The position numbers and the translations under genes are program-made. The notes under the pieces were generated by a model. It was given only the letters and a program-made list of their open reading frames with translations. It searched no databases and was not told where the DNA came from. Positions 33,375-51,601 of a DNA stretch of 64,000 bases are shown piece by piece. Origin of the DNA: Verrucosispora sp. WMMD573. GTDB lineage: Bacteria; Actinomycetota; Actinomycetes; Mycobacteriales; Micromonosporaceae. The stretch is taken from the NCBI RefSeq assembly GCF_027497175.1, contig NZ_CP114901.1, positions 3,348,001 through 3,412,000 of the forward strand, in the 5' to 3' direction. The first letter of the stretch is position 1, and the number at the start of each line of letters is the position of its first letter.

Positions 33375-34394
33375 CGCCTCCAACACCGCGTCCACCACCC
33401 GAGACCGGCCGCGTCCGTCCACGGCGGTCCAGGCGCGGGCGGACAGCTCGGCCCGGCGTGCCCCGTCGTCGAGCAGCCCCGCCAGGGTATGCGCGGCGGC
33501 CCGGGTCGCCGCAGCGTCGCCGGCCAACGCGGGCAGCTCACCGAGCCCGGCGGCCAGGCCCGCCGCCACCACCCGGTGGTACGACTCGCGCTGGTTGTCC
33601 ACCACGCAGACCAGCGCCGACGGCGCCCCGAGGCAGCACAGTTCCCAGGTGGAGGTGCCGGCGGCGCTGACCACCAGGTCCGCCGCGGCGATCAGGGTGG
33701 GCAGCGTACCGGTGGGTGGCACCGGCAGCAGCGACTGCCCGGCCCCCGGCGTCAGTCGGGCCATCCGCGCCGCCAGTTCGGGCCGGCCGACGACGACTGT
33801 GAGTTCCATCGGCCGGCCGGTCGACAGCAGCACCTCGGTCAGCACCGGTGCCGCGCCGGCCGCGTCGGTGCCGCCGAAGAAGGCCAGCACCGAGGCAGGC
33901 TGCACCGTCACCGCCGGCCGTGGGGCCGCCGGCCGGGCGGCCAGGACACCCTCACGCAGCAGGGCGTACCCGCTACCGGCGAGCAGCCTGCCCGCCGGCA
34001 CCGCCAGGTCGGTGGCGAAGTTCTGGTCCAGATAGAGGTCGGCGTCCTGGCCCCGGGTGTCCCCGTCCACGATGGCCAGGGTCAGCACCCCGGCGGCCCG
34101 TAGCGCTCCCGCACCTGCGGGATCCAGCTCGTACGAGTCGAGGACCAGCACGTCCAGGTCGTGTCGTCGGGCCGTGGCGACCAGGTCGTCCGGGCGGTCC
34201 GGGCCGGGGTGCAACGGGATACCCCGGGCGGTGAGCTGGTCGGCCGCCCAACCGACGCCGTCGACGGTGCCGAAGACCTCGACGATCGCGCCCCGGGCCT
34301 GGAACTCCTCACCGAGGGCGAGACAACGGACCAGGTGCCCGACACCGCGCAGTGGCCCGGCGTCACAGCGCAGTCCGACTCGTAACGTGCTCAG
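33339..34394 (-). CDS. pseG: PseG-like nucleotide-sugar hydrolase (SpsG type)
   Basis: A 351-residue GT-B-like protein related to PseG and SpsG. PseG removes UDP from UDP-2,4-diacetamido-2,4,6-trideoxy-L-altrose. The N-terminus LRVGLRCDAGPLRGVGHLVR carries the family's G-x-G-H-x-x-R-C motif with the catalytic His. No ATG, GTG or TTG occurs upstream of this motif; the first in-frame canonical start is a TTG at 34214, which would delete it. I infer initiation at the CTG at 34394, which overlaps the preceding stop as CTGA, just as the other junctions in this operon overlap as ATGA or GTGA. GGAGGAG lies immediately upstream. An ACG at 34388 is the alternative. Confidence 0.8.
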   Translation of the reverse strand: MSTLRVGLRCDAGPLRGVGHLVRCLALGEEFQARGAIVEVFGTVDGVGWAADQLTARGIPLHPGPDRPDDLVATARRHDLDVLVLDSYELDPAGAGALRAAGVLTLAIVDGDTRGQDADLYLDQNFATDLAVPAGRLLAGSGYALLREGVLAARPAAPRPAVTVQPASVLAFFGGTDAAGAAPVLTEVLLSTGRPMELTVVVGRPELAARMARLTPGAGQSLLPVPPTGTLPTLIAAADLVVSAAGTSTWELCCLGAPSALVCVVDNQRESYHRVVAAGLAAGLGELPALAGDAAATRAAAHTLAGLLDDGARRAELSARAWTAVDGRGRSRVVDAVLEALRHVAAGAPVQ

Positions 34395-35125
34395 CGCTCC
34401 TCCAACCGCTTCTGCCGGACGTCGGCGTTGATCGCGCGCAGCGCCGGTTGCCCGTCGAGCCAGTCGGCGAGCTTGGCCAGCGGCACGCTGACATCACCGA
34501 AGTGGTCGGCCACCGCGCGGACCAGATCCCAGTCGCGGGCGGTGTCGAGGGTGAGGCGCAGCTGCGAACGGTCCGGGGTGAGGGTCACGCCGAGCACCCG
34601 GAACACCTCCGGATGCGCGTACGCGTACGAGGTCACGTGCACCCGGTGATGGTCGGTGGCGAGCCGGTCGACGGTACGCAGCGCGTCCGCCCGGATGATC
34701 TCGACATCCAGACCCCGGGGGAGGGTGCGGGCGATCGACGTGCTGGCGTAGTCCAGCCCCGGCACGGCGCGGTACACCGAGGCGACCAGGCTGACGATCT
34801 CCGGGTCCAGCAGCGGACAGTCGGCGGTGAACCGCATCACCGCGTCGGCGGGATGGGCGTCCAGGGCGCCGACGAAGCGGGTCAGCACGTCCTCGACGGG
34901 GCCACGGTGCCAGGCGATGCCGAGCCGGTCACACTCGGCGACGACCGCGTCGTCACTGCTGTCGCTGCTGGTCGCCACCACCAGGTCGGCCAGCACGCCG
35001 CTGTCCTGGGCGGCCCGGACCACCCGGCCGAGCACGCTGCGCCCGGCGAGCGGGCGGAGCACCTTGCCGGGCAGCCGGGACGAGCCCATCCGCGCCTGCA
35101 CGATGCCGACGATTCGGTCCGTCAC
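34391..35125 (-). CDS. SpsF-type cytidylyltransferase (probable CMP-nonulosonate synthetase)
   Basis: A 244-residue nucleotidyltransferase of the SpsF family (COG1861). The N-terminal signature VGIVQARMGSSRLPGKVL binds the nucleotide, and TADCPLLDPEIV supplies acidic residues for metal. Within a pathway that also has PseB, PseC, PseG, PseH and PseI it most likely activates the finished nonulosonic acid with CMP, the step done by PseF in Campylobacter. This assignment is inferred from context. The GTG start at 35125 overlaps the previous stop (GTGA) and follows GGAGG by six bases. Confidence 0.85.
   Translation of the reverse strand: MTDRIVGIVQARMGSSRLPGKVLRPLAGRSVLGRVVRAAQDSGVLADLVVATSSDSSDDAVVAECDRLGIAWHRGPVEDVLTRFVGALDAHPADAVMRFTADCPLLDPEIVSLVASVYRAVPGLDYASTSIARTLPRGLDVEIIRADALRTVDRLATDHHRVHVTSYAYAHPEVFRVLGVTLTPDRSQLRLTLDTARDWDLVRAVADHFGDVSVPLAKLADWLDGQPALRAINADVRQKRLEER
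34397..34403 (-). promoter_or_regulatory. Shine-Dalgarno GGAGGAG deciding the pseG non-AUG start
   Basis: GGAGGAG lies on the minus strand at the end of the SpsF-type gene, two bases before the CTG (34394) and eight before the ACG (34388) of the pseG frame. It has no other downstream start to serve, which supports initiation here rather than at the internal TTG 180 bases on. Confidence 0.55.
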
Positions 35126-36951
35126 TTCTGTCCTCCCTGCTTCGCGGCGATGGCGGCGCGGGCCCGGCGTTTGGCGGCGCGGGCGCCGCGCCGGGCCATC
35201 CGGGCCGGGGTGATGGCCAGCCGCCCGACCTTGTAGCTCAGCGAACCGCTCAACAGATTGATCTTCGCCTCGGCCCGACGCAGCGCCCGCTCCCGCGAGG
35301 TGAGCAGGTTCTCCGTCCACCTGAGCAGCGCCGTCAGCCGGGTGTTCTCATCCTGCTGACGTAGCCACGCCTCGCGCAGCTGCTGATAGCTGCGGGGGCC
35401 AGGAGGCGGGTCGGTCGGACTGAGCGCCGACTCCACCTCCACCGCCGCCGCCGTGTCCTTCGCGGCCGTCTCCTTCGCGGCCTCGACGACGGCCCGGTCG
35501 AAATCGCGTCCGGCGACCCCGCCGAGCACGACGGTCAGCCCCGCCACGTCCAGCGTGGAGGTCCACGGGTGGGCGTAACCGCCGGTGAGCAGGTCGCTGG
35601 CGAATCGCCACAGCGTCCGGGCCAGCACCACCTCGACCGGTAACGGTGCCTCGGCCGGATGGCTCGGGTCGAGCACCGCCCAGCGGTCACCGTCGACGAC
35701 CAGGTTGTCCGCCCCGGCCAGGGCGACCGCCCCGGTCAGCCGTCCCTGCTCGGCCTGGCTGTCGAGCCAGTCGGCATAGCCGCGCAGCAGCCGGCGCAGC
35801 AGCGCCGTGTCGCGGCGCAGGCACCCGTCGAGCAGCAGGCTGCGCAGCAGACGCCCGTCGGGCACCGGGCCGTCAGGGGCGGCCGGCTCGCGGTCGGTCA
35901 GCTCCCGCCCGGCGTACGAGGCGTCGGGCACGGCGACGTCGGTACGGTGCCAGTGCCAGCCCTGTGGCCCGTCCCGTACCTCGACGACCGTGCCGCCCGC
36001 CGCCGCGTCGGCGACCAACGCCACCGGCAGCGGGGCGGGCACGCCGGGTCCCGGGTGTGCCGACGGGGCGACGCGCGGCAGCGGGTGCGCCGTGCCGCCG
36101 CTGTCGTCGGGCTCGCCGTCGGTCCGCTCGACGTGAGGCCGGCGGGCCAGCACCAGCCAGGACGGGGCCAGGTCGGCGGCGCGACCGGCGTGCAGGGCGT
36201 CCACGGCCAGCCGGGCCGGATCGGCGAGGACGAACCGGCCGGTGTACCCGTCGGTGCAGGCGGCGTGCAGCACCGCGTCGAACAACCCGCTGCCGGTGTG
36301 CCGAGCCAGCTCGTCGACGGCCAGCAACGCGGTGGTCAGGTCGGGACGCGGGTACCCGGCGTAGCAGGTGCCGGGGCGCATCCCGGCGGCGGCCAGCCGC
36401 TCGCGGGCCTGCCCCAGGCTCGCCGGACGGGCGACGTCCAGCACCCCACCGACGGTCCAGTCGGCATCGGCCCGGCCGGCGTACCAGCTCTCGGCGGCGA
36501 CCAGCCGGTGCACGCCGAGCGGGTTGTCCAGCCGCAGCAGCAGTTCACCGCCGGGGCGGACGGCCGCCACCAGGCGGGCCAGCAGACCGTCCCAGCCGAG
36601 CCGCTCACCCTCGACCGACTCGACCGCGTCCAGCCCGGCACCGGCGATCACCACGTCGTACTCCTCGCCGGCAGGCAGGCCGTGTGGGCCGCTCACCAGC
36701 ACCCGGTCCACCCGGTCGGCGAGCACCGCCGCGTCCGGGTAGCCGCGCAGCAGGCAGGTGATCCGGGCATGGGCGAGCGCGTCGAGCAGCGCCGGACCGT
36801 GTGGCCCGGCCAGCAGCACCCGGGCGCCGGCCGGCACCAGGCGAGCGGCCAATGCGGCGAGCGGACCGTCACCGGCTGGGTCCGTCCGGTCGGACCAGGC
36901 GAGCATCTCACCGCCGGGCAGCGTCACCGCCGACGCCGTCTCGGTTGTCAC
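35122..36951 (-). CDS. Multidomain protein: methyltransferase-like, kinase-like middle, coiled-coil tail
   Basis: A 609-residue protein I cannot name fully. Residues of about 25-230 resemble a class I SAM methyltransferase (GARVLLAGPHGPALLDALA, EEYDVVIAGAGLDAVE, VRPGGELLLRLDNP). About 380-500 contains a stretch recalling phosphotransferase folds (GYADWLDSQ..., ADNLVVDGDRWAVLDPS). The C-terminal 90 residues form a basic coiled coil with SGSLSYKVGRLAITPARMARRG, a tail often seen on actinobacterial surface-glycan enzymes. It is coupled by GTGA overlaps to both neighbours in the pse operon. A role in modifying or assembling the nonulosonate glycan is inferred. Confidence 0.75.
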   Translation of the reverse strand: MTTETASAVTLPGGEMLAWSDRTDPAGDGPLAALAARLVPAGARVLLAGPHGPALLDALAHARITCLLRGYPDAAVLADRVDRVLVSGPHGLPAGEEYDVVIAGAGLDAVESVEGERLGWDGLLARLVAAVRPGGELLLRLDNPLGVHRLVAAESWYAGRADADWTVGGVLDVARPASLGQARERLAAAGMRPGTCYAGYPRPDLTTALLAVDELARHTGSGLFDAVLHAACTDGYTGRFVLADPARLAVDALHAGRAADLAPSWLVLARRPHVERTDGEPDDSGGTAHPLPRVAPSAHPGPGVPAPLPVALVADAAAGGTVVEVRDGPQGWHWHRTDVAVPDASYAGRELTDREPAAPDGPVPDGRLLRSLLLDGCLRRDTALLRRLLRGYADWLDSQAEQGRLTGAVALAGADNLVVDGDRWAVLDPSHPAEAPLPVEVVLARTLWRFASDLLTGGYAHPWTSTLDVAGLTVVLGGVAGRDFDRAVVEAAKETAAKDTAAAVEVESALSPTDPPPGPRSYQQLREAWLRQQDENTRLTALLRWTENLLTSRERALRRAEAKINLLSGSLSYKVGRLAITPARMARRGARAAKRRARAAIAAKQGGQK

Positions 36952-37794: not shown

Positions 37795-38955
37795 TCAGGC
37801 GGCGGGCCGGAGCGAGACGCCGCGCAGGGCCGCGGCCAACGCGTCGATGACGCGGTCCTGGTCGGCGTCGCGCAGTCCAGGGTAGAGCGGCAGCGACAAC
37901 TGCTGGGCGTAGAAGGCCTCCGACACGGGGCAACTGCCGCGCCGGTAGCCGAGATCGGCGAAGGCCGGGTGCCAGTGCGCGGGGATGTAGTTGACCTGAA
38001 CGCCGATGCCGGCCGCGCGCATCCCTTCGTAGATCTCGCGGCGGCGCCCGTCGAGCACCCGGATCGGGTACAGATGCCAGGCCGGTGCCGCCCACTCCCG
38101 CCGGCCGGGCACGAGCACGCCGGGCAGGTCGGCCAGGGCCGCGTCGTAGCGGGCCACCAGTTCGGCGCGGCGGGCGAGGAAGGCGTCGAGCCGGCGCAGC
38201 TGGCTGCGACCCAGCGCGCACAACACGTCCGGCAGCCGGTAGTTGAGGCCGAACTCGTGCACCTCCTGGTGCCAGCCGCCCTCGTCCGGCCACCGTAGCT
38301 CGTCGGCTTCCCGGACCAGCCCGATGTTGCGGAACCGCCGGGCCCGCTTCAGCAGCTGCGGATCGGTGGTGGCGACCGCGCCTCCCTCGGCGGTGGTCAG
38401 GTTCTTGGTGGGGAAGAACGAGAACGTGGTCAGGTCGGCCAGCGACCCCACCGGCCGGCCCCGGTAGGTGGCGCCGATCGAGTGGGCCGCGTCGGCGAGC
38501 AGCAGCGCGTCGCTGCCGTCCAGCGCGGTGCGCAGCGCGTCGTAGTCGGCCGGGTGGCCCGCGTAGTCCACCGCGGCGACGACCTTCGTCCGCCCGGTGG
38601 TCGCCGCGGCCACCGCAGCCGGGTCCAGGGTGAACGTCTCCTCCTCCACGTCGGCGAAGACGACCCGCGCGCCGAGGGCGACCGCGCTGCTGGCGGTGGC
38701 CACGAACGTCATCGGCGGCACGATCACCTCGTCGCCGGGGCCGACACCGGCCGCCGCGTACGCCACGTGCAGCGCGGCGGTGCCGTTGGAGACCGTCGCC
38801 ACCCCGGCGCCACCGGCCCACGCGGAGATGTCCGCTTCGAAGGCGGCCACCTCCGGGCCGGTGGTGAGCCAGTCGCTGCGCAGGGCGGCGACCACGGCGG
38901 CCACGTCGTCGTCGGTCACCGACTGGCGTCCGTACGGCAGGAAGGAGAAGGTCAT
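37795..38955 (-). CDS. pseC: PseC-like PLP aminotransferase (DegT/DnrJ/EryC1 family)
   Basis: A 386-residue aminotransferase that would convert the 4-keto sugar made by PseB into UDP-4-amino-4,6-dideoxy-N-acetyl-altrosamine. It shows SNGTAALHVAYAA near residue 55, the motif VDYAGHPADYD, DAAHSIGA, and the PLP lysine in FFPTKNLTTAEGG. The C-terminal AWHLYPIRV and YIPAHWHPAF are typical of PseC and SpsC. It overlaps the end of pseB by four bases (ATGA), which fits sequential action. Confidence 0.93.
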   Translation of the reverse strand: MTFSFLPYGRQSVTDDDVAAVVAALRSDWLTTGPEVAAFEADISAWAGGAGVATVSNGTAALHVAYAAAGVGPGDEVIVPPMTFVATASSAVALGARVVFADVEEETFTLDPAAVAAATTGRTKVVAAVDYAGHPADYDALRTALDGSDALLLADAAHSIGATYRGRPVGSLADLTTFSFFPTKNLTTAEGGAVATTDPQLLKRARRFRNIGLVREADELRWPDEGGWHQEVHEFGLNYRLPDVLCALGRSQLRRLDAFLARRAELVARYDAALADLPGVLVPGRREWAAPAWHLYPIRVLDGRRREIYEGMRAAGIGVQVNYIPAHWHPAFADLGYRRGSCPVSEAFYAQQLSLPLYPGLRDADQDRVIDALAAALRGVSLRPAA

Positions 38956-39935
38956 GCCGCGATGCCGAGCATCTCACGCAGCTGGGGCACGGTGAGCCAC
39001 TGGTCGTTGGTGTCCGACTGGTACGCGAACCCGTCCGCGACCGGCTCGCAGCCGACGGGCGGCTGGTAACCCCAGGTGGCGATGGTCGGCTGCACGATGA
39101 ACCGGTCCTTGGCGATAAGCGTCCGCCGACTGTCGTCCGGGGCGATCATCTCCTCGTGCAGCTTCTCGCCGGGCCGGATGCCGATCTCATGGGTGGTGGC
39201 GTCCGGGGCGACCGCCTCGACCAGGTCGAGGATGCGCATGCTGGGGATGCGGGGCACGAACAGTTCGCCGCCCTGCATCTGGTCGAAGGAGTCGATGACG
39301 AACTGCACGGCCTGGTCCAGGGTGATCCAGAAGCGGGTCATCCGCTTGTCCGTGATCGGCAGACTCTTGCCTTCGGCGGCGAGCCGGCGGAACAGCGGAA
39401 CCACCGAGCCCCGGCTGCCGACCACGTTGCCGTAACGCACCACCGCGAAACGGGTCGGGTGCTGCGCCGCGTAGTGGTTGGCGGAGATGAACAGCTTGTC
39501 GCCGACCAGCTTGGTCGCGCCGTACAGGTTGATCGGGCTGGACGCCTTGTCGGTGGAGAGGGCGACCACCTTCTGCACGCCGGCCTCGATCGCCGCGTCG
39601 ACGACATGCTGCGAACCGGTGATGTTGGTGGCGATGAACTCCGACGGGTTGTACTCCGCGGTGTCGACCTGCTTGAGGGCGGCGGCGTGTACGACGTGGT
39701 CCACGCCGTGCATGGCCCGGGTCAGCCGGTGCCGGTCCCGGATGTCGCCGATGAACCAGCGCAGCCGGGGGTCGTCGCCGAGCTGCTGGCGCAGCTCGTA
39801 CTGCTTGAGTTCGTCGCGGGAGAAGACCACCACCCGGGCCGGATCGGTCTCGGCGAGTAGGTGCCGCAGGAAGGTCCTGCCGAAGGAACCCGTTCCCCCG
39901 GTGACGAGGATGGACGATCCGTTCAGCTCGCTCAA
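38952..39935 (-). CDS. pseB: UDP-N-acetylglucosamine 4,6-dehydratase (inverting), PseB-like
   Basis: A 327-residue extended SDR that dehydrates UDP-GlcNAc and inverts C5, the first step toward pseudaminic acid. The NADP-binding TGGTGSFGRTFL is near residue 12. VVHAAALKQV and NPSEFIATNITGSQHV follow. The active region shows STDKASSPINLYGATKLVGD, in which the catalytic triad region carries the Lys substitution typical of inverting dehydratases, and it ends with RPGEKLHEEM. It is the first gene of a six-gene minus-strand operon (39935 down to 33339). Confidence 0.94.
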   Translation of the reverse strand: MSELNGSSILVTGGTGSFGRTFLRHLLAETDPARVVVFSRDELKQYELRQQLGDDPRLRWFIGDIRDRHRLTRAMHGVDHVVHAAALKQVDTAEYNPSEFIATNITGSQHVVDAAIEAGVQKVVALSTDKASSPINLYGATKLVGDKLFISANHYAAQHPTRFAVVRYGNVVGSRGSVVPLFRRLAAEGKSLPITDKRMTRFWITLDQAVQFVIDSFDQMQGGELFVPRIPSMRILDLVEAVAPDATTHEIGIRPGEKLHEEMIAPDDSRRTLIAKDRFIVQPTIATWGYQPPVGCEPVADGFAYQSDTNDQWLTVPQLREMLGIAA

Positions 39936-40203: not shown

Positions 40204-41964
40204 ATGACCGTCGAGGCCGAGACGACCCGGGCCGGGGAGACGGGCGGGTCGGTGGACCGGCGTGAGCCGGCGCGCCCCGGCCGCCGACGCTGGTTGGTCC
40301 CGCTGCTGCTGGTCGGCGGCTGGCTGCTCGGCACCGCCTGGCGGATCTGGGTGGCCCGCCACGCCAGCATGCCGTTCGCGCACACCGACGAGGACAGTTA
40401 CCTCACCACCGCCCGCGCCCTGGCCGGCGGTCCCGGCGGATTCAGCAGCGAGAACGAGACCCTGCGCCGGATCGGGTACCCGCTGCTCATCGCGCCGGCC
40501 TTCCTCCTCGACCGGGAGTTCCCCGACACCTACCTGCTGGTGCGGGTGATCAACGCGGCGCTGAACGCGACGGTCCTGCCGCTGGCGTACCTGCTCGGTC
40601 GCCGGCTGTTGGGACTGCGGCCCGGTCCGGCCCTGGCGGCGGCGGCCGGCGCGGCGACACTGCCGGCGGTGGCCTTCCACGCCACGATGGCGATGACCGA
40701 CGCGGTGCTCGGGCCGCTGCTGCTGGCCTGGCTGCTCGCCGTGCACCGGCTGGTCGAGCGGCCCGGGGCGGTCGCCGCGGCGATGTGCGGTGCCCTGGCC
40801 GGGGCGGCGTATCTGGTGCACTCGCGCGGGGTGGTGATTGTCGTCGGGCTCGCGCTGCTGGCTCTGGCGCTGGTCGTCCGCCGTCGGCTGGCCCCGGCCG
40901 CGCTGCTGGCGGCGGTGCTGCCGGTGGTGGCCGGGGTGCTCGGCAACGAGGCGGGCGTACGGCTGCTCGGCGATACGGTGCACCTGCTCGGCAGCCCGGC
41001 CGGTGGCAACGTGGTGCGGGCGGTCACCTCGGTCCGAGGGCTGTCGCAGGTGCTGGCGTCCGTCGGAACGCAGGTGTGGTACCTGACGGTGGTCACCTTC
41101 GGGCTGGCCGGGCTGGCCGGTGCCGAGGCGGTCACCCGGCTGTGCCGCCGGGGCGGTGCCGCCGCCAGGTGGACGTTCGGGGTGGCTCTGCTGACCACTG
41201 TGGGCGTCGCCGTCGGCGCGGAGGTCGTCCTGGCCGGGGTACCCGACCGGGTGCCGGACGCCATCTACGCCCGCTACGTGCAGATGTTCGCCCCGTTCTG
41301 GCTGCTGGTCGGCATCGGGCTGCTGTTCGGTACCGCGTACCGTCCGCTGCTGCGCCGGGCCGGCGCCACCGTGCTGCTGCTGGCGGCGGGCGGTGTGCTG
41401 ATCCACCTTCGTCTGTCGCAGGCCGCCGCCGATGGTGCGCCGCTGCGCTGGGGCGGGTTCAGCGCGCCGGACCTGATGGCCCTGACCGGCGGGTGGCGAC
41501 AGATGCGCCCGCTGGTCGGCTCCGCGATCGGGGTCGCCGGTTGCCTGCTGCTCGTGCTCGTGCTCGCGACCCGCCACCGGGTCGCGCGTACCCGCGTGCT
41601 GGCGGTCGTGCTCACCGCGCTGATCGTGGTCAACGTGGCGACCATGCAGGTGATCACGCAGCGGCTGATCCGCCCACTGGCGACGGCCGACACGCCCGTG
41701 CCCAGCGTGACCCAACTGGGGGTCCGGGCGCCGGAGCGGGTCGCCGCCTCCACCGGCGTGCCCTACCAGCTCCGGTACAACCTCAGCCACCAGGTGACCT
41801 GGACCGAGGTGCCGTGGTTCCGCGACCGGCCGCCGGCCGACGCGGAGGTGGTTTTCGCCCGTTGGGCGCCCGGCGAACCCGACGACTGGGACGGCACCCG
41901 GCACGGCTTTGTCCGGCTGGGCGGCGACCCGCAGCGTAAATGGGCCGGGTGGCGGCGCGGGTGA
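40204..41964 (+). CDS. Polytopic membrane protein, GT-C glycosyltransferase-like
   Basis: A 586-residue integral membrane protein with about 11-13 hydrophobic helices. The first extracytoplasmic loop carries HTDEDSYLTTARALAGG, the acidic motif placed where GT-C enzymes (ArnT, PMT and GT39 relatives) bind the lipid-linked sugar and metal. The C-terminal 80 residues form a soluble extracytoplasmic tail. It has a strong GGGAGGAAAAG site before the ATG. Divergent to pseB and near pseH, it may attach or transfer a sugar across the membrane. The donor and acceptor are unknown. Confidence 0.75.
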   Translation: MTVEAETTRAGETGGSVDRREPARPGRRRWLVPLLLVGGWLLGTAWRIWVARHASMPFAHTDEDSYLTTARALAGGPGGFSSENETLRRIGYPLLIAPAFLLDREFPDTYLLVRVINAALNATVLPLAYLLGRRLLGLRPGPALAAAAGAATLPAVAFHATMAMTDAVLGPLLLAWLLAVHRLVERPGAVAAAMCGALAGAAYLVHSRGVVIVVGLALLALALVVRRRLAPAALLAAVLPVVAGVLGNEAGVRLLGDTVHLLGSPAGGNVVRAVTSVRGLSQVLASVGTQVWYLTVVTFGLAGLAGAEAVTRLCRRGGAAARWTFGVALLTTVGVAVGAEVVLAGVPDRVPDAIYARYVQMFAPFWLLVGIGLLFGTAYRPLLRRAGATVLLLAAGGVLIHLRLSQAAADGAPLRWGGFSAPDLMALTGGWRQMRPLVGSAIGVAGCLLLVLVLATRHRVARTRVLAVVLTALIVVNVATMQVITQRLIRPLATADTPVPSVTQLGVRAPERVAASTGVPYQLRYNLSHQVTWTEVPWFRDRPPADAEVVFARWAPGEPDDWDGTRHGFVRLGGDPQRKWAGWRRG

Positions 41965-42029: not shown

Positions 42030-42590
42030 TCAGCGAACGCGGCGGTTGGCGCGCTCCAGGAAAATGGGTATCACGGTGATTTCCCGGCCGTCGTGGATCT
42101 CCTGGCGGCTGGGCCCCTCGACAAAACGGAGCCGCCGGTTCATCTGCCGTACCACCGTGTTGTGGGCGAGCACCTCGCCGTCGAGCCGGTCCAGCGCCAG
42201 CACGTCGAAGGCGTGGTCCACCGCCTCCCGCATCACCTCCAGCCAGGCAGGCAGCGTCTCGCCCCGCTCGGCCAGCCCCTCGGCGTCCAGGTAGAAACCC
42301 CACCCGCCGGTACGCGGGCCGGACAGCCGCAGGTCGAAGTAGGTGACCGCGCCACTGGGCACGCCGTCGCGCAGGTAGGTCAGCACCCGACGGGAGGGGT
42401 CCTGACGCACCGCCGACCACCACCGGCGGTGCTCCTCGGCGGTGATGACGTGACTGGTCTTGCTGACCTGTCGGTTGACCTCCTGATTACGCCAGGACAA
42501 CATCAGGTTAACGTCATCCTCGGTGGCGTCACGCAACACGTACCGCTCGCTTTCCGTCCCGTTTACCTGGTCACCGGGCACCCTAATCAC
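42030..42590 (-). CDS. pseH: PseH-like GNAT N-acetyltransferase
   Basis: A 186-residue GNAT acyltransferase. The opening LRDATEDDVNLMLSWRNQEVNRQ is shared by PseH and SpsD proteins, which acylate the 4-amino group of UDP-4-amino-4,6-dideoxy-AltNAc. TAEEHRRWW follows, then the GNAT core (GAVTYFDLRL, GGWGFYLD) and the acetyl-CoA-binding part (VLALDRLDGEVLAHN). The GTG start at 42590 follows AGGTGA. It is convergent with the GT-C-like gene and divergent to the ACP cassette, 27 bases from the ACP start. Confidence 0.88.
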   Translation of the reverse strand: MIRVPGDQVNGTESERYVLRDATEDDVNLMLSWRNQEVNRQVSKTSHVITAEEHRRWWSAVRQDPSRRVLTYLRDGVPSGAVTYFDLRLSGPRTGGWGFYLDAEGLAERGETLPAWLEVMREAVDHAFDVLALDRLDGEVLAHNTVVRQMNRRLRFVEGPSRQEIHDGREITVIPIFLERANRRVR

Positions 42591-42617: not shown

Positions 42618-42869
42618 ATGAAGGAATTGAGTCGGGCGCAGATTCGCGACCTCATGGGCGAGGTGCTCAAGAACCAGGGCAAAGCGTTGCCCGCCGACGA
42701 CGCCGCCGATCTGCGCGAGGTTGGCTTCCGGTCGCTGGACTTCTCCGAGTTGGCGCTGCGCGTCGAGGACGCCACGGGGGAGGAGCTGAACTTCGACGCG
42801 CCCGGGCTGCGCCGGATCGCCACCGTCGGCGACGTGCTGGACTTCCTCGTCGAGTTGCAGCGGCAGTGA
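42618..42869 (+). CDS. Acyl carrier protein
   Basis: An 83-residue free-standing acyl carrier protein. The four-helix fold is recognisable, with the phosphopantetheine serine at Ser39 in GFRSLDFSELALRVED (the usual DSL is RSL here) and the closing helix IATVGDVLDFLVEL. Its acidic helices fit the family. It overlaps the next gene by four bases (GTGA). It opens a four-gene cassette whose members could load (adenylation), reduce (SDR) and prime (PPTase-like) this carrier. Confidence 0.9.
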   Translation: MKELSRAQIRDLMGEVLKNQGKALPADDAADLREVGFRSLDFSELALRVEDATGEELNFDAPGLRRIATVGDVLDFLVELQRQ

Positions 42870-44137
42870 GCGTCGAGACCGCCCCGCAGGCCCCCGTCCA
42901 GCCGGCCGGAGTGGACAATCGGATCGTCGTCGACGGTGCCACGCTCACCTGGCGTGACCTGCCGGAGCTGACCCTTCCCGGGCCCGCTGCCGCGCTGGCC
43001 CACTCGGCCCGGCACGCGCTCGCCGCCGCCCGGCACCACGCCGTGCACGGCACTGAGCTGCTGCTCAGCACGGCCAGCCGGGTCGACGCGGCGATGCGCG
43101 CGGAACTTCGCGACGCCGGGTTCGCGGTGACGGAACTGGGTGACGACCGCGCGGACGGGGACGCGACCGCGCCCGCCCCACGGGCCGCCGAGCCCGGCCG
43201 GTTGTGGCTGCTGACCTCCGGCTCCACCGGTCGTCCCAAGCGGGTGGGGCACACCCTCGAATCGCTCACCACCGTCCGGGGACAGCAGCCCGCGCGGACC
43301 TGGCTCTGCCCGTACGCCCCCGGCACGTACGCCTGGTGGCAGGTGGTCACGCTGTCGCTGACCCAGCCGGGTCAGCATCTGGTGGTGGTGGAACCCGATC
43401 AGCTCGACGACTGGCCGGCGCTGGCGGCCGAGCACGGTGTGGACGCCGCCTCCGGCACCCCCACCTTCTGGCGACGGGCCCTGCACCGTGATCCGGCCGG
43501 GCTGGCCCGGGTGCCGCTGCGTCAGCTGACCCTCGGCGGGGAACCGGTCGACCAGACCATCCTGGACCGGCTGCGGGAGCTGTTCCCGGCGGCCCGGATC
43601 TCCTGGATTTACGCCTCCTCGGAGGTGGGCGCGGCCATCGTGGTGCACGACGGGCGGGCCGGGTTCCCGGTGGAGTGGCTGGACCGGGCAGCTCCGGGCC
43701 GTCCCACCCTCGGGGTGCGCGACGGAGAGCTGGTGATCACCTCGCCGTACCACGGTGTCGGGCTGGACGGTCCGGTCCGCACCGGCGACCGGGCGCAGGT
43801 GAGCGGTGACCGAGTGCTGATCACCGGCCGGCTCGACGCGGACGAGATCAACGTCGGTGGCAGCAAGGTCTCCGCCGGTGTGGTCCGCGACGTGCTGACC
43901 GCGCATCCCCAGGTGGCCTGGGCCCGGGTCGCCGGTCGACGCGCCCCGCTGCTCGGTCACATGGTCGTCGCCGAGGTGGTGCCGGTCGGCAGCGCCACCG
44001 CGCCGGCCGAGGCCGGGCTGGACGAGGCGACGCTGGTGCGCTGGTGTGCCGACCAACTGCCCGAGTACGCGGTGCCGCGTCGGATCCGCGTGCTGACCGA
44101 GATTCCCGTCAAGGAGACCCTGAAGAGCGATGTCTGA
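42866..44137 (+). CDS. Short AMP-binding (acyl-adenylating) enzyme
   Basis: A 423-residue ANL-superfamily adenylating enzyme that would activate a carboxylic acid with ATP and probably load it on the adjacent ACP. Motifs are the P-loop LLTSGSTGRPKRVG (residues 115-128), YASSEVGA, VRTGDRA, the hinge region NVGGSKV and the C-terminal catalytic Lys near 420 (VKETLKSDV). The N-terminal domain is shorter than in typical 500-550-residue ligases, so the substrate is probably small. GTG start, coupled to the ACP gene; its end overlaps the SDR gene by eight bases. Confidence 0.88.
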   Translation: MSVETAPQAPVQPAGVDNRIVVDGATLTWRDLPELTLPGPAAALAHSARHALAAARHHAVHGTELLLSTASRVDAAMRAELRDAGFAVTELGDDRADGDATAPAPRAAEPGRLWLLTSGSTGRPKRVGHTLESLTTVRGQQPARTWLCPYAPGTYAWWQVVTLSLTQPGQHLVVVEPDQLDDWPALAAEHGVDAASGTPTFWRRALHRDPAGLARVPLRQLTLGGEPVDQTILDRLRELFPAARISWIYASSEVGAAIVVHDGRAGFPVEWLDRAAPGRPTLGVRDGELVITSPYHGVGLDGPVRTGDRAQVSGDRVLITGRLDADEINVGGSKVSAGVVRDVLTAHPQVAWARVAGRRAPLLGHMVVAEVVPVGSATAPAEAGLDEATLVRWCADQLPEYAVPRRIRVLTEIPVKETLKSDV

Positions 44138-44888
44138 CCCCACCACCCCCGCCCGACCCGTACCGCCCAGCACCGTGGTGCTCGTCTCCGGCGGTTCCCG
44201 CGGTCTCGGCCTCGCCATCGTCACCGACCTGCTCGAATCGGGCCTGAAGGTGGCTGCCTTCGCCCGTACCGTCACGCCCGAGCTGGCCAAGCTCGCCGAC
44301 ACCCATCCGGAGCGGACGCACGTCGGCTCGGTCGACGTGACCGACCTCGCCGCCGCGCAGACATTCGTGCGGGCGGCCGAGGAGCGACTCGGCCCGATCG
44401 ACGGCGTGGTGAACAACGCGGCCGTCGGGCAGGACTCGCTGCACGTGCACACCGCCAATGCCGACATCGCCCGGATCATCGAGACCAACCTGACCGCGCC
44501 GTTGCAGCTCACCCGGCTGGCCGTGCGGCGGATGCTGGCCCAGGGGCGACGCGGGCGGATCGTCAACATCACCTCGATCTGCGCGCAGCGCGGCTTTCCC
44601 GGCCTGGTGGCGTACTCCGCCACCAAGGGCGGGATGGACGCGGCGACCCGGTCGCTGGCCCGGGAACTCGGCGGGCGGGTGCTGGTCAACGCGGTCGCTC
44701 CGGGCTTCTTCGCCTCGGAGATGTCGGCGGTGCTTGGCCAGACCCAGCTCGACCAGATCGTGCGCCGTACGCCGACCGGTCAGCTGACCGAGCCGGAGGA
44801 GGTGGTGCCGGTGGTGCGGCTGCTGCTGCGCGACCAGACGAACATCAACGGCCAGGTCATCGTGGTCGACGGTGCCGCCTCGATCTGA
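44130..44888 (+). CDS. FabG-like SDR, probable 3-oxoacyl-ACP reductase
   Basis: A 252-residue classical short-chain dehydrogenase. The NADP-binding GGSRGLGLAIV is near residue 18. VDVTDLAAAQ, GVVNNAAVGQ, the Ser in ITSICAQ and the catalytic YSATKGG follow. The C-terminus FINGQVIVVDGAAS-like ending is typical of FabG. In this context it most likely reduces a 3-oxoacyl chain on the adjacent ACP to the 3-hydroxyacyl form. Starts at ATG 44130, overlapping the adenylation gene. Confidence 0.88.
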   Translation: MSDPTTPARPVPPSTVVLVSGGSRGLGLAIVTDLLESGLKVAAFARTVTPELAKLADTHPERTHVGSVDVTDLAAAQTFVRAAEERLGPIDGVVNNAAVGQDSLHVHTANADIARIIETNLTAPLQLTRLAVRRMLAQGRRGRIVNITSICAQRGFPGLVAYSATKGGMDAATRSLARELGGRVLVNAVAPGFFASEMSAVLGQTQLDQIVRRTPTGQLTEPEEVVPVVRLLLRDQTNINGQVIVVDGAASI

Positions 44889-45399
44889 TCCGCCGCACCC
44901 GTTGTCCCGCACCCACGACGGTGCGGGACAACGGGTCGGCGCCCTGCTCGCCGCCGCACCACAGCACCTGCGGGTGGCATCGGCGGCCGACTCGGGTGCC
45001 GCCGTCACCCGCAGCCACCTCGGCGACGGACGCTGTGTCGGCTGGTACGCCCCGCCGGTGCCCGGCTGGCGGGTCGCGATCGACGCCGAGCACGCCGCCG
45101 CCGCGCTACCCGCCGCGCTGGCCCGCCGGTTCGGGGCCACCGACTTCTGGGGCCGGTGGACCCGGGTGGAGTGTCTGGCCAAACTCGCCGACGTACCGGT
45201 GGCCACCTGGTGGCATCGGCACGGCCTGGAGGTGCCGTCCGGCACCGCGTGGCTGTGGCGCACCCTGCCGCTGACCGACCTGGTCGTCACCGTCGCCTTC
45301 ACCCCCACCAACCCGGCCGACCGCGCCGACCGCGCCGACCGGGGACCGCGCCGGGGGTCGCGCACTTTCCCTGATACTGCGGTGTCCGGTTCCGGTTGA
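44872..45399 (+). CDS. 4'-Phosphopantetheinyl-transferase-like protein
   Basis: A 175-residue protein. The segment DFWGRWTRVECLAKL matches the second PPTase core motif (W-x-x-x-E-x-x-x-K), in which Glu and Lys act on CoA and metal. VPGWRVAIDAEHAAAAL may hold the aspartate of the first motif. It is smaller than Sfp (about 225 residues) and the first motif is poor, so activity is uncertain. It starts at GTG 44872, overlapping the SDR gene end by 17 bases; a later start is possible. It could prime the cassette's own ACP. Ten bases separate it from the convergent terC-like gene. Confidence 0.65.
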   Translation: MPPRSDPPHPLSRTHDGAGQRVGALLAAAPQHLRVASAADSGAAVTRSHLGDGRCVGWYAPPVPGWRVAIDAEHAAAALPAALARRFGATDFWGRWTRVECLAKLADVPVATWWHRHGLEVPSGTAWLWRTLPLTDLVVTVAFTPTNPADRADRADRGPRRGSRTFPDTAVSGSG

Positions 45400-46357: not shown

Positions 46358-46394
46358 CGGGAATACCTCTCGTCCGGCCGGATCCGTCGCCGAA

Positions 46395-46515
46395 CCCGGC
46401 GTTGCCGGACGAAGGTCTTCCCGGCCACCGATGCGGTGGCCGCGTCACCGGGGTCCGGATGGCCGGACCCGTACTGACGGCGACGCGCGGAACGTCGGGT
46501 ACTCCCCCTCGAACT
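46395..46515 (-). ncRNA. Putative yybP-ykoY manganese riboswitch in the terC leader
   Basis: The leader read on the minus strand contains GGGGGAGTACCC near its start (around 46509-46497), then CGTCAGTACGGGTCCGG with its paired CCGGACCC, GGTGACGC, and GGGAAGACCTTCGTCCGG near 46425-46408. I recognise this order from actinobacterial yybP-ykoY elements, which bind Mn2+ and often precede terC-like exporters. It begins about ten bases after the predicted promoter and ends about 40 bases before the TTG start. The boundaries are approximate. A covariance-model search would settle it. Confidence 0.72.
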
Positions 46516-46522
46516 GCGTACC

Positions 46523-46552
46523 AGTATTCACGAAGCAAGCTTCGTGTGTCAA
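46523..46552 (-). promoter_or_regulatory. terC promoter whose whole spacer is a palindrome
   Basis: On the minus strand TTGACA (46552-46547) and AATACT (46528-46523) flank exactly 18 bases, cacgaagcttgcttcgtg. These are a perfect inverted repeat (8-base arms, 2-base centre). The -35 box overlaps the stop codon of the upstream ion-channel gene. A palindrome filling the spacer is where a repressor, or a MerR-type activator, would bind. It indicates transcriptional control in addition to the riboswitch. Confidence 0.7.
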
Positions 46553-47655: not shown

Positions 47656-47707
47656 ACCCAGAGGTATACCCGCCGGCCGGGAACCGCCACGACGCACCCC
47701 GGCACCG

Positions 47708-48754
47708 TCAGATCAGATCCCAGCTCAGCGCGGTGCCACGCGCCACGTCGGCGGTGAAGCGGCGGCCCAGCACCCGGTCGATCTCCACCGGGGGGAGTCC
47801 ACCGGCCGGTCGGATCGAGCGGACGTTCTGCACGGTCACCTCGTCGCCGGCGCGTACGTCCGCCACCACGTACAGCGAGCGCCGGAAGCGCAGGCCCTCC
47901 TGCTCGGCCGGCGTCGGCCCGACCGCCGTGCCGCCCAGTGCCGCGTACGCCCGCTCCGACTCGACCACCAGGGCGGCCAACTCGCTGGGGTTGAGCGAGA
48001 AGTCGGAGTCCACCCCGCCGTCGGCGCGGTCCAGCGTGACGTGCTTCTCGATGAAGCAGGCGCCGAGCGCCACCGAGGCCACCGGCACCCCGATGCCCGG
48101 GGTGTGGTCGGAAAGACCCACCGGCACGCCGAACGCGTCGGCCAGCACCGGGATCCGGCGCAGGTTGCTGTCTGCCGGCGGTGCCGGATAGGAGGCGGTG
48201 CAGGCCAGCAGGATGATCCCGCCCGCACCGCCGTCGCGGGCGGTCCGCACGGCGGCGTCGATCTCGGCCAGGGTGGCCATCCCGGTCGAGATGACCATTG
48301 GCTTGCCGGTGGCCGCGACCAGCCGGATCAACGGCAGATCGACCAGTTCCGACGAAGCGATCTTGTACGCCGGAGCGTCCAGTTCCTCCAGCAGCTCCAC
48401 GGCGGTGGAGTCGAACGGGGAGGAGAAGACGGTCAGCCCGAGGGCGCGGGCCCGCTCGAAGATCGGCCGGTGCCACTCGTACGGGGTGTGCGCCTTCTCG
48501 TAGAGCCGGTAGAGGTTCTGCCCGCCCCACAGCTCGTGCCCGCCGGAGATGCGGAACTCCGGCGTGTCCACGTCGATGGTGATGGTGTCCGGCCGGTACG
48601 TCTGAAGCTTCAGCGCGTGCGCGCCACTGGCCGCCACGGCATCCACGATGGACAGGGCGCGGTCCAGGTCTCCGTTGTGGTTGCCGGACATCTCGGCCAC
48701 CACGAAGGGGCGCTCTCCGGCGCCGACCAGATGCGACCCGATCTTGAACGTCAT
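47708..48754 (-). CDS. pseI: Pseudaminic acid synthase-like (NeuB family)
   Basis: A 348-residue enzyme that condenses the 6-deoxy hexose from PseG with phosphoenolpyruvate to make the nine-carbon acid. The TIM barrel shows VVAEMSGNHNGDLDRAL, the PseI-typical LKLQTYRPDTITID, FSSPFDSTAVELLEEL and HTPGIGVPVASVALGA-IEKHVTLD. The C-terminal SAF (antifreeze-like) domain starts near residue 285 (RRSLYVVADVRAGD). Its start overlaps the glycosyltransferase stop by four bases (ATGA). It lies about 8 kb from the main pse operon. Confidence 0.93.
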   Translation of the reverse strand: MTFKIGSHLVGAGERPFVVAEMSGNHNGDLDRALSIVDAVAASGAHALKLQTYRPDTITIDVDTPEFRISGGHELWGGQNLYRLYEKAHTPYEWHRPIFERARALGLTVFSSPFDSTAVELLEELDAPAYKIASSELVDLPLIRLVAATGKPMVISTGMATLAEIDAAVRTARDGGAGGIILLACTASYPAPPADSNLRRIPVLADAFGVPVGLSDHTPGIGVPVASVALGACFIEKHVTLDRADGGVDSDFSLNPSELAALVVESERAYAALGGTAVGPTPAEQEGLRFRRSLYVVADVRAGDEVTVQNVRSIRPAGGLPPVEIDRVLGRRFTADVARGTALSWDLI

Positions 48755-49893
48755 TCCGATCCGTTTCCGTGCGTGCTTACCAAGGTGCGGTCCTGGGCCG
48801 GGCTGCCCGGTGCCGGGGCCGACCCGCCTGTCGCGGGATCCCCGCCGGTGCTGCCGCGGAGCCGGCCGGCGAGCCGATGGGCCCGCCGCAGCGCCGCGTA
48901 CGCCAGGTAGCTGTCGCGGCCGACCAGCCGGTGCTTGAGCCCCGACACTCCGCCTGGTCGGGGGTAGCCGCCGCGGGGCAGGTACGTGCGGTAGTGCGCG
49001 GCGACCCGACGGAAGAAGTCCCGGCGCAGGTGCGGATGCAACCGGTCGTCGTTGCCGACCACCACCAGGAAGTGGTTCACCATCAGGTCGAACAGCTCGG
49101 CGTGCCAGCGTCCGTCCGGATGCCGGTGCCGCAGCCAGGCGAAAAGGCGGTCGTACTGCTCGAAGGCGTCGAAGTGCCGACCGCTACGCGTGGAGGTGAT
49201 CGCTCCCTGGCGGCCCTGACGGTACAGATAGCAGACCCGGTCCAGCACGCTGATGCGCTCCGCGCCGATCAGCAGCGGGTGGCTGAACGGGATGTCCTCG
49301 TACCAGCCGGGGTGGAAGCGCAGCCCCAACTCGGCCATGAACTCCCGGCGTACCACCTTGTTCCAGGCGGTGTGCTGCACGCGTAGCAGGTGCGGCCGGT
49401 CGGCCAGCCGGACCACGCCGGGGATCGCGCGCAGCAGCCGGCTGCTGGCGTCCACCTCCTCGCGCCCGCACTCGTGCACCCGCAGGTGGTCGACCATCAT
49501 CACGTCGGGGCGGTCCGCTCGTAGCCGGTCCAGCACGGCCGGGATCGTGCCGGCCGGCAGCCAGTCGTCGCTGTCGACGAACCAGACGTACCGGCCGGTG
49601 GCCACGTCCAGGCCCGCGTTGCGGGCCGGTCCGAGGCCGACATTGCGGTCCAGGTGCAGGACGCGCAGCCCGGGATGCTCGGCGGCGTACCCGCGCAGCA
49701 GGTCGCCGCACCGGTCCGGCGAGGCGTCGTCGACGGCGATCACCTCGACCTGAGCCGCCTCGGCAGGCGGGATGTCGCCGTGGATGGAGTCCAGGCACTG
49801 GCGCAGGTACGCCTCGACGCCGTAAACCGGCACGACGATGCTCAGCAGCGGCGTTGGCGTCGGCGGTGTGACCACCCGGAAACCTTCGGCCAT
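48751..49893 (-). CDS. Family 2 glycosyltransferase
   Basis: A 380-residue GT2 enzyme. The nucleotide-sugar fold has LLSIVVPVYGVEAYLRQCLDSI at the start, VIAVDDASPDR, NVGLGPARNAGL and the metal-binding FVDSDDW near residue 115. The C-terminal half contains basic helices (GLKHRLVGRDSYLAYAALRRAHRLAGRLRG) that may touch the membrane. Coupling to pseI by a four-base overlap suggests it works on the nonulosonate glycan, perhaps adding the sugar next to it. Start at ATG 49893, with only a weak ribosome-binding site. Confidence 0.88.
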   Translation of the reverse strand: MAEGFRVVTPPTPTPLLSIVVPVYGVEAYLRQCLDSIHGDIPPAEAAQVEVIAVDDASPDRCGDLLRGYAAEHPGLRVLHLDRNVGLGPARNAGLDVATGRYVWFVDSDDWLPAGTIPAVLDRLRADRPDVMMVDHLRVHECGREEVDASSRLLRAIPGVVRLADRPHLLRVQHTAWNKVVRREFMAELGLRFHPGWYEDIPFSHPLLIGAERISVLDRVCYLYRQGRQGAITSTRSGRHFDAFEQYDRLFAWLRHRHPDGRWHAELFDLMVNHFLVVVGNDDRLHPHLRRDFFRRVAAHYRTYLPRGGYPRPGGVSGLKHRLVGRDSYLAYAALRRAHRLAGRLRGSTGGDPATGGSAPAPGSPAQDRTLVSTHGNGSE

Positions 49894-50212: not shown

Positions 50213-51601
50213 ATGACGAGCACGTCCCTCGCGCCGTCGGCGACCACCCCACGCGAGCGTACGGACGCGGACCGTCTGCCGTCGCTGACCGGGCTGCGGT
50301 GGATCGCCGCGCTGCTGGTCTTCGGTTTCCACGCCGGCACCATGCGCATCATCGCCGATCCCGGTCCGCAGGCGGTGGTGGGCGAGATCTTCACCCTGGG
50401 CCTGTCCGGGGTGCAGTTCTTCTTCATCCTCAGCGGCTTCGTGCTGGTCTGGTCCGCGCGGCCTGGTGCCTCCCGGCGCCGGTTCTGGCGGCGTCGGTTC
50501 GCCAAGATCTATCCCAATCATCTGGTGCTGTGGGCGCTGGCCATGCTGGCGATGCTCTGGTTCGCCGATCCGATCAACCCGGTGGCGGCGCTGGAGAATC
50601 TCCTGCTGGTGCAGGCCTGGGATCCGCGGCCGGGCCACTTCTACAGCATCAACAACGTCAGCTGGTCGCTCTCCTGCGAGCTGTTCTTCTACCTGTGCCT
50701 ACCGCTGGTGCTGCCGGCGGTGCGACGGGCCCGACCGTGGCTGCTGTGGGCTGTCGTGATCGCGGTGCCGCTGCTCATCCTGGCGCTCTGGCCCGGGCAG
50801 GCTCTGGTTCCGGAGCCGGATCGGTGGTGGTTCACCCAGGTCTTCCCGCTGGTTCGTTCGCTGGAGTTCTGGATGGGCGTGGCCGCGGCCGAACTCATGC
50901 TGCGGGGCCGCTGGCGGGGGCCCCGGCTCCCGGTGGCCAGTCTGATCTTCGTCCTGACCTGGGTGGCGGCCTCCCAGTGGATCCGGGCCGAGTTCTGGGC
51001 GGCGCTGCTGTCGGCGGCGTACGTCCTGGTGATCGCCGCTGCGGCCGACGCGGACGTGCACGGGCGGCGCTCGCCGTTGCGCTCCCGGACGATGGTCTGG
51101 CTCGGCGAGGTCTCGTTCGCGTTCTACCTGGTGCACGTTTTCGTGATCATGACGATCCTGCGGTTGACCGGCGACTGGGGTACCGGCCTGCCCGGCTGGT
51201 GGGGTCCGCTCGCGGTGGTCGGGTTCCTGCTGCTCACCCTGGGACTGGCCGCTCTGTTGCACAGGTACGTGGAACAGCCGATGATGCGTCGCCTGGCCCC
51301 ATCCCGACCGCCGCAACCCGGCCCGCCGGACGCGGCGCGTACCAGATCATCGGGCGCTGCGGCGCGACCTGTGTCGCCGGGCGGCGCGGTGCGCTCCGAG
51401 TCGCCGGGCGGCGCGGCGCGCTCCGAGCCGCCGGGCGGCGCGGCGCGCTCCGGGTCGCCGGGCGCGGCGGGTTCCGAGACGTCGCCCGGACCGTCGGTGG
51501 TCGGACTGCCCCGACAGCGGGCATCCCGGGACGGTGCGGACCCTGCCGGCGGCGTTGATCATAGCGGCGACCGTCCATCACGGACGGTAGGTTTGGAGTA
51601 G
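50213..51601 (+). CDS. Acyltransferase 3 family membrane protein (OafA/YrhL-like)
   Basis: A 462-residue membrane O-acyltransferase. It begins LPSLTGLRWIAALLVFGFHAG, which carries the family's catalytic His, then about ten helices, with GVQFFFILSGFVL and FYLVHVFVI typical of the family, and RYVEQPMMRRL at the domain end. Such enzymes acylate sugars of surface polysaccharides across the membrane. The last 75 residues are a disordered tail built on tandem copies of SPGGAARSE. ATG 50213 follows GGGAGG by six bases. Proximity to the pse genes and the ACP cassette suggests acylation of the same glycan (inferred). Confidence 0.9.
   Translation: MTSTSLAPSATTPRERTDADRLPSLTGLRWIAALLVFGFHAGTMRIIADPGPQAVVGEIFTLGLSGVQFFFILSGFVLVWSARPGASRRRFWRRRFAKIYPNHLVLWALAMLAMLWFADPINPVAALENLLLVQAWDPRPGHFYSINNVSWSLSCELFFYLCLPLVLPAVRRARPWLLWAVVIAVPLLILALWPGQALVPEPDRWWFTQVFPLVRSLEFWMGVAAAELMLRGRWRGPRLPVASLIFVLTWVAASQWIRAEFWAALLSAAYVLVIAAAADADVHGRRSPLRSRTMVWLGEVSFAFYLVHVFVIMTILRLTGDWGTGLPGWWGPLAVVGFLLLTLGLAALLHRYVEQPMMRRLAPSRPPQPGPPDAARTRSSGAAARPVSPGGAVRSESPGGAARSEPPGGAARSGSPGAAGSETSPGPSVVGLPRQRASRDGADPAGGVDHSGDRPSRTVGLE
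51374..51470 (+). repeat. 27-bp tandem repeat in the acyltransferase tail
   Basis: A unit of 27 bp (starting tcgccgggcggcgcgg) occurs at 51374, 51401 and 51428, with a partial copy at 51455. The period is a multiple of three, so the reading frame is kept and each copy adds nine residues (SPGGAARSE). Confidence 0.85.

Follow-up and report, generated by a model that had tools for sequence, protein, structure and literature searches.

An acyl carrier protein cassette that probably forms an exchangeable N-acylation module with a PseH-like protein in an actinobacterial pseudaminic acid locus

In the AlmEFG and Dlt systems, a stand-alone adenylase, a carrier and an acyltransferase together modify a surface glycan. 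Both systems load amino acids, their acceptors are lipid A and teichoic acid, and their acyltransferases have other folds than the one considered here. The subject of this work is a 64,000-nt stretch of the genome of Verrucosispora sp. WMMD573 (contig NZ_CP114901.1, positions 3,348,001 to 3,412,000; the whole stretch is called the window), and specifically a cassette of four genes encoding an acyl carrier protein (ACP), an adenylase, a ketoreductase and a protein resembling phosphopantetheinyl transferases (PPTases), together with a divergent pseH-like gene. The closest described arrangement is that of the Aeromonas group II flagellar islands, found in 98 strains, in which genes for an ACP, a 3-oxoacyl-ACP reductase and an AMP-dependent synthetase (orf1–orf3) lie by pseH (PMC7874193). 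In Vibrio cholerae O1, RfbL activates 2,4-dihydroxybutanoate and putatively loads it onto coenzyme A (CoA) or the carrier RfbK (PMC12208996). Finally, the psaABCDEF and psaABCGHF gene sets of Acinetobacter baumannii are predicted to give pseudaminic acid (Pse) with an N-7 acetyl and an N-7 (R)-3-hydroxybutanoyl group, respectively (PMC9676051, Table 7).

How does the Verrucosispora locus compare with these systems? It shares with Aeromonas group II the block of ACP, reductase and AMP synthetase that adjoins pseH among pse genes, a likeness at the level of domains. The Aeromonas block differs in that luxE and luxC lie alongside, for which fatty-aldehyde channelling or a liposugar has been suggested, and the excerpted text of that report does not mention a PPTase-like gene (PMC7874193). 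Neither luxE nor luxC was matched among the 20 window proteins, part of all window genes, that were scanned against families. V. cholerae O1 rfbK/rfbL (wbeL) likewise has a stand-alone ligase (471 aa) and acylates the amino group of a surface sugar (PMC12208996, PMC3441752). There the sugar is perosamine in the O-antigen, not Pse. To our knowledge, the tetronate set has no PPTase-like gene. The first-pass annotation of this DNA also pointed to ACP and ketoreductase genes in the flagellin glycosylation island of Pseudomonas aeruginosa, and Cj1307/Cj1308 of Campylobacter jejuni may be a further parallel. A. baumannii psaABCGHF is likewise an acyl-gene swap of the Pse pathway with a changed N-7 group; two genes are swapped, and neither an ACP nor an adenylase is named in the excerpted source (PMC9676051). 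AlmE and DltA are fold matches of the cassette adenylase. The canonical PseH of Campylobacter jejuni (4xpk) is the best PDB match of the cassette PseH, and the PseH family is its best NCBIfam family, although the cassette protein is unlike the canonical one in its score (60.5 bits against a cut-off of 93.1), in an Arg/Asn pair in one motif, and in grouping apart. Because the Aeromonas group II and V. cholerae O1 parallels are published, the general arrangement is already known. A first-pass annotation of this DNA had called the arrangement new; that does not hold for an ACP, reductase and synthetase by pseH, which have precedents in Aeromonas and in RfbL/RfbK of Vibrio, and it is the PPTase-like gene that is newer. 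Among the open-licence papers listed by literature searches, none was seen to deal with this cassette of Actinomycetota or with Pse in either Micromonospora or Kribbella. As far as these searches show, what is new is the actinobacterial module with its own PseH, the evidence that a resident PseH was replaced, and the PPTase-like protein.

The four genes and the divergent pseH-like gene are probably one exchangeable N-acylation module, in which the cassette would make an acyl-ACP that the cassette PseH uses for N-7 of Pse. The features that bear on this reading are as follows.

42618..42869, + strand: acyl carrier protein, 83 aa; PF00550 25.3 bits (cut-off 20.8), with the predicted attachment Ser in GFRSLDF
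42866..44137, + strand: short stand-alone ANL adenylase, 423 aa; PF00501 67.3 bits and PF13193 44 bits, both over cut-off
44130..44888, + strand: FabG-like short-chain dehydrogenase/reductase, predicted ketoreductase, 252 aa; PF00106 156.7 bits, PF13561
44872..45399, + strand: PPTase-like protein, 175 aa, accessory cassette member; conserved motifs and fold matches
42030..42590, − strand: PseH-like GNAT protein, cassette type; TIGR03585 is the best NCBIfam match, below cut-off
47708..48754, − strand: PseI, pseudaminic acid synthase; TIGR03586 464.1 bits, over the cut-off of 340.25
38952..39935, − strand: PseB, inverting UDP-GlcNAc 4,6-dehydratase; TIGR03589 489.7 bits, over the cut-off of 407.75
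37795..38955, − strand: PseC-like aminotransferase; TIGR03588 is the best match at 393.7 bits, below the cut-off of 423.5
48751..49890, − strand: family 2 glycosyltransferase; PF00535

As first proposed, the cassette consists of four overlapping genes (coordinates, family matches and overlaps of 4, 8 and 17 bases agree on this), its ACP gene starts 27 bases from the start of the divergent pseH-like gene, and it stands without a ketosynthase, none having been matched among the scanned window proteins. It also lies inside a nonulosonate locus, as had been claimed, and the predicted proteins make that locus specifically one for Pse, because PseB and PseI pass their NCBIfam equivalog cut-offs and the PseC-like and PseH-like proteins have these families as best matches, below the respective cut-offs.

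The cassette is strongly linked to the genes for Pse. A survey of 200 genomes of the family, including that of the host, found the adenylase in 25 and pseI in 66, with all 25 within the 66 (Fisher test 2e-14, kinship ignored); for the genus, the counts are 21 and 23 of 38, again with all 21 within the 23. Likewise, all 3 adenylase genomes in a phylum sample of 346 are among the 12 with pseI. E-value limits were 1e-40 for the adenylase and 1e-50 for pseI in the family, and 1e-60 (adenylase, profile search) and 1e-80 (pseI) in the phylum. A scan of named genomes gave 154 adenylase relatives, and the top 80 serve here as the named loci. Within the fetched stretches, these 80 loci have the ACP in 78 cases, the reductase in 79, the PPTase-like gene in 57, a pseH-like gene in 74 and pseI in 68. 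For 11 of the 12 loci without pseI in the stretch, pseI lies elsewhere in the genome, and the same is true of pseH for 5 of the 6 loci without it; in total, 79 of the 80 loci are in genomes with both pseI and pseH. The survey for co-occurrence with pse genes that the first-pass annotation had suggested thus bears out its expectation. Cassettes are carried by Micromonospora, Kribbella, Actinoplanes, Hamadaea, Actinocatenispora, Nocardioides and Knoellia. Carrier, adenylase and reductase are therefore one module tied to Pse. From here on, counts out of 99, 102, 103 and 104 include duplicates (some of the 24 cassette loci from survey genomes come from the same genomes as the 80 named ones), and the 104 cassette loci include one, L150, that has the adenylase only.

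Does pseH follow the cassette or the organism? In a tree built from 96 distinct PseH rows (84 from cassette loci and 12 non-cassette), cassette state changes once, on a dividing branch with support of 100/99. For the 87 loci with both genes, there is one change on the PseH tree (SH-aLRT 98) and four on the PseI tree, and a single cassette clade of PseI is rejected (lnL, the log-likelihood, is 210 lower; approximately unbiased test, p-AU 2.9e-100). Identical sequences were merged in the PseH and PseH/PseI trees. A PseB tree of 26 rows has three changes, with locus L077 coded as non-cassette, though a different contig of its genome, G199, carries the cassette; the 87-locus comparison includes only loci with both genes and hence excludes L077. 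For example, PseI of Actinoplanes sp. KI2 (L117) and of Hamadaea (G061, L059) nests among cassette-less kin, and PseH of L117 and of the named Hamadaea locus L142 falls in the cassette group. It follows from these counts that PseI tends to track the organism and PseH tracks the cassette. Identities give a similar comparison: two loci of the same genus without the cassette have PseI at 84% and PseH at 46–49%, and the Kribbella values are near 62% for PseI and near 60% for PseH.

PseH follows the cassette in place as well as in sequence. In non-cassette loci, pseH lies between a family 2 glycosyltransferase gene and pseI in 7 of 9 cases, the two exceptions being L077, a pseI-bearing contig from a genome with the cassette, and L070, where pseH was not matched. 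Of 54 cassette loci with these neighbours, none has pseH in this position, and no fetched stretch has two pseH genes. In the window, the glycosyltransferase gene and pseI overlap and pseH adjoins the ACP gene. The pseH-like gene thus belongs to the cassette module, and it looks as if the resident pseH has been replaced by a pseH of the cassette type. The cassette PseH has Arg and Asn at two positions of a stretch that we take to be GNAT motif B in 99 of 99 sequences, and in all 5 further PseH proteins from cassette genomes in which pseH lay on another stretch. At the same positions, non-cassette PseH has Leu or Ile and His in 11 of 12 cases, the remaining one giving no match. Of five PseH-like matches from other genomes of the phylum that lack the cassette, four carry Tyr at the second of these positions and the fifth ends before it. 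In the PseH proteins of the cassette-less loci L063–L076, His takes the place of the Tyr of other actinobacterial PseH, so these proteins too may use an unusual donor or mechanism. The change to Arg/Asn would suit a different acyl donor.

How might the module work? The ACP would be primed by the PPTase-like protein where it is present and by another cellular PPTase elsewhere. The ANL enzyme would then activate a small carboxylic acid that lacks an amino group and load it onto the ACP, and the FabG-like reductase would reduce a keto group of the ACP-bound acyl chain or of its precursor. The product may be a short hydroxyacyl-ACP, such as 3-hydroxybutanoyl-ACP; the 3-hydroxybutanoyl group is a first guess, to which we give somewhat less than an even chance. 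PseB and PseC supply a UDP-sugar whose 4-amino group becomes N-7 of Pse. It is to this amino group that the cassette PseH would transfer the acyl group, in place of the acetyl that acetyl-CoA would provide, and PseI would pass the acyl group on as the N-7 group of Pse in a surface polymer. The anatomy of the cassette, its linkage to pse genes, the lack of the resident pseH in loci with the cassette and the match between PseH lineage and cassette are observed; the acyl-ACP donor, the N-7 site and the order of reduction and loading are what we infer from them. The first-pass annotation had proposed as clients of the acyl-ACP both the PseH-like protein and a membrane acyltransferase encoded at 50213. 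Trees, gene order and the Arg/Asn signature favour the former; the latter is discussed below.

GxxSLD is kept in 102 of 102 ACP homologues and YxxxK in 102 of 103 reductase homologues; the best NCBIfam match of the reductase is TIGR01830, 3-oxoacyl-ACP reductase, at 178.9 bits (below the cut-off of 297.75). The N-terminal part of the adenylase is short. Its A3 loop, TSG(S/T)TGRPK, and its C-terminal Lys420, which aligns with the C-terminal Lys of CmiS6, are kept in 18 of 18 aligned sequences (a C-terminus pattern that matched 75 of 104 was not used). With PF00501, PF13193, the A3 loop and the C-terminal Lys all present, the protein is, judged by sequence, an ANL adenylate-forming enzyme. Its structure model (mean predicted local distance difference test, pLDDT, of 76) is closest in fold to HitB–HitD, PltF–PigG, DltA and IdnL1, with AlmE among the best in a second alignment. 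Most of these fold neighbours load a separate carrier, and the lists also contain CoA ligases. Fold neighbours and gene linkage together predict that the adenylase loads the ACP with an acid.

Several observations weigh against the module as just described. Long branches meet at the junction of the two PseH groups, as the tree program itself warns, and all 12 non-cassette PseH proteins come from one family. The non-cassette PseH of this family also lacks the usual CoA loop and the motif Tyr. The CoA loop has the form R/Q-x-x-G-x-G; its loss was considered as an indication that the donor is an ACP, a criterion that was given up because the non-cassette PseH of the family also lacks the loop. 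Because both types of PseH in the family are without the loop, the motif change alone is no proof of an ACP donor. The Kribbella cassette lies 5–7 kb away from pseH and pseI, and in L158 these two genes are on another contig than the cassette. (In Kribbella locus L118, the genes that separate pseH from the cassette, one of which was scanned without a match, give no clue to the acid.) The adenylase has a malonyl-CoA ligase as its top profile match in the PDB, the reductase could act on the free acid instead, the PPTase-like gene is not within 1.5 kb behind the reductase gene in 24 of 103 loci, and no published chemistry was found for any carrier of the cassette. Relatives with the cassette and without sugar genes had been named in advance as a counter-case. 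Only one of the 80 named loci, L150 (Nocardioides marmoriginsengisoli), is of this kind; it has the adenylase without an ACP or cassette reductase, and its genome gave no pseH or pseI match. Its adenylase relative (L150:8013-9239, 61%) lies behind a glycosyltransferase/TagF-like gene and has a different C-terminus, and is perhaps a teichoic acid acylation enzyme.

Other uses of the same genes are conceivable. Like DltA and AlmE, the adenylase could load an amino acid, so that the sugar is aminoacylated and the reductase has a separate job. Its fold neighbours do include DltA, AlmE, PltF and HitB. However, an Asp of the beta-amino-acid adenylases HitB and CmiS6, which presumably holds the amino group of the substrate, aligns with the invariant Ala156 of the cassette adenylase, so an amino acid is an unlikely substrate, and it was rejected on this alignment, which is weak evidence; the near-constant presence of the reductase (79 of the 80 loci) also speaks against a separate job, and we regard aminoacylation of the sugar as very unlikely. 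Alternatively, the adenylase might make an acyl-CoA, with the ACP loaded by fatty acid synthase, such that there is a shared acyl pool and no loading line. Many of its NCBIfam matches are CoA ligases, all below cut-off, and this would fit the malonyl-CoA ligase as best PDB profile match. Against it, the ACP is coupled in 78 of the 80 loci, with overlapping genes, and the first 10 Foldseek rows contain 9 adenylases that load carriers (the other being the amide synthetase McbA), so that a shared pool seems very unlikely indeed.

A further alternative keeps the acyl-ACP and changes its acceptor: the group might go to another part of the polymer, through O-acylation by the acyltransferase at 50213 or at a glycosyltransferase step, with PseH a mere neighbour. 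That protein is, as had been read from the sequence, a membrane acyltransferase with a PF01757 match.

50213..51601, + strand: membrane acyltransferase; PF01757 117.9 bits (cut-off 31)

A homologue scoring above 100 bits is present in 53 of 104 cassette stretches, in keeping with such a role, but one is also present in the cassette-less Micromonospora locus L063, the other 51 stretches (some of them short) have none, and no homologue was found in the Kribbella stretches. The acyltransferase was therefore rejected as a client of the cassette, on the strength of L063 and the 51 stretches without a match. PseH, by contrast, tracks the cassette in sequence and place, and we consider another acceptor unlikely.

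What is the role of the fourth protein? The window protein has no Pfam or NCBIfam match (the PF01648 cut-off is 25 bits), and a Pfam scan of 10 near relatives gave no PPTase match. Among more distant relatives, 5 of 22 aligned sequences match PF01648 below its cut-off, the best at 20.0 bits. The protein is conserved (70 relatives at E<=0.001), and D71-x-E73 and W96-T97-x-x-E100-x-x-x-K104 are invariant; for D71, E73, E100 and K104 this holds in two alignments, one of 25 sequences and a broader one with 22, which share 10 rows. Three translations that run past a stop (L104, L154 and L201) were excluded from alignment. A metal-binding D-x-E and an E-x-x-x-K are the defining motifs of PPTases. 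The structure matches are led by PPTases, and hhalign places the PPTase motifs in the same register, in a weak match (E 0.012, probability 3.5%) to a profile built from the 15 of 32 PPTase loci that passed a motif filter, one that itself demanded PPTase-like motifs. Searching the PDB with the sequence or profile gave nothing, and a profile search for further relatives gave no bridge, as none of the 120 listed of 234 matches has a precomputed Pfam domain. Hence, only the distant relatives, the fold and, weakly, hhalign point to PPTases, and the protein is best called PPTase-like, with a predicted activity. Because 24 of 103 loci show no such gene within 1.5 kb behind the reductase gene, the module does not depend on it.

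The fourth protein may instead have a PPTase fold and be inactive, as a partner of the ACP or a scaffold. This would be compatible with the N-acylation module, and it is unlikely while deserving serious thought. It would account for the missing family match and for the loci without the gene; moreover, where usual PPTases have a Lys just before the conserved Glu, the relatives have Val, Ala or Thr (in one or two cases another residue), and three other PPTases over cut-off are encoded in the host genome. The invariance of D71, E73, E100 and K104 is hard to explain without catalysis. If active, the protein would be among the smaller Sfp-related priming enzymes. The most far-reaching form of our proposal joins all of these parts: a GNAT protein with a dedicated ACP donor, its own loader and reductase, and a minimal PPTase of an unnamed family that primes just that ACP, a unit whose acquisition would drive out the resident pseH and so give the wall polymer a different N-7 acyl group. 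We hold this form tentatively, and on balance would lean against it.

The host genome is a single contig of 6.5 Mb and groups with Micromonospora; the adenylase shares 94% identity with a Micromonospora sediminimaris protein, and the PseH-like protein 98% with one labelled Verrucosispora sediminis. Four further features complete the locus.

34391..35320, − strand: cytidylyltransferase, probable PseF by inferred role; PF02348 94.0 bits
36948..37784, − strand: conserved protein without Pfam or NCBIfam match; neighbour of pseC in cassette and non-cassette loci
40204..41964, + strand: PMT_2-type membrane protein adjoining the cassette; PF13231 28.7 bits
35125-36948: 608-aa protein between the probable pseF and the 36948 gene, without a Pfam or NCBIfam match at the limits used

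The PMT_2-type protein is matched in 19 of 20 same-genus cassette loci (L039–L058). No PseG was matched among the scanned window proteins, which makes the 278-aa protein at 36948-37784 a candidate for a PseG replacement; it could also be a glycosyltransferase. Between the cassette and pseI (45410-47697) lie a TerC-family gene and a gene read from the sequence as ion-channel-like. One or both are also there in close relatives, and in most other Micromonospora rows seen, pseI directly follows the cassette. Locus L129 is labelled Streptomyces sp. SID13031, and its PseH and PseI nest among those of Kribbella, so the genome may be mislabelled.

What would such a module mean for the biology of these bacteria? 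N-acyl groups govern the recognition of surface nonulosonic acids, and the source of the longer ones is rarely known. A pseH that is swapped in step with an ACP–adenylase–reductase set would serve as a genetic marker for the type of acyl group, and it offers a testable acyl-ACP donor for a GNAT protein. Teichulosonic acids of Kribbellaceae may contain Pse with hydroxyacyl groups. Kribbellaceae carry the cassette, and their main wall polymer has been described as a teichuronic or teichulosonic acid (PMC6113628), so the chemistry of the polymer could be compared directly with the gene content in this family.

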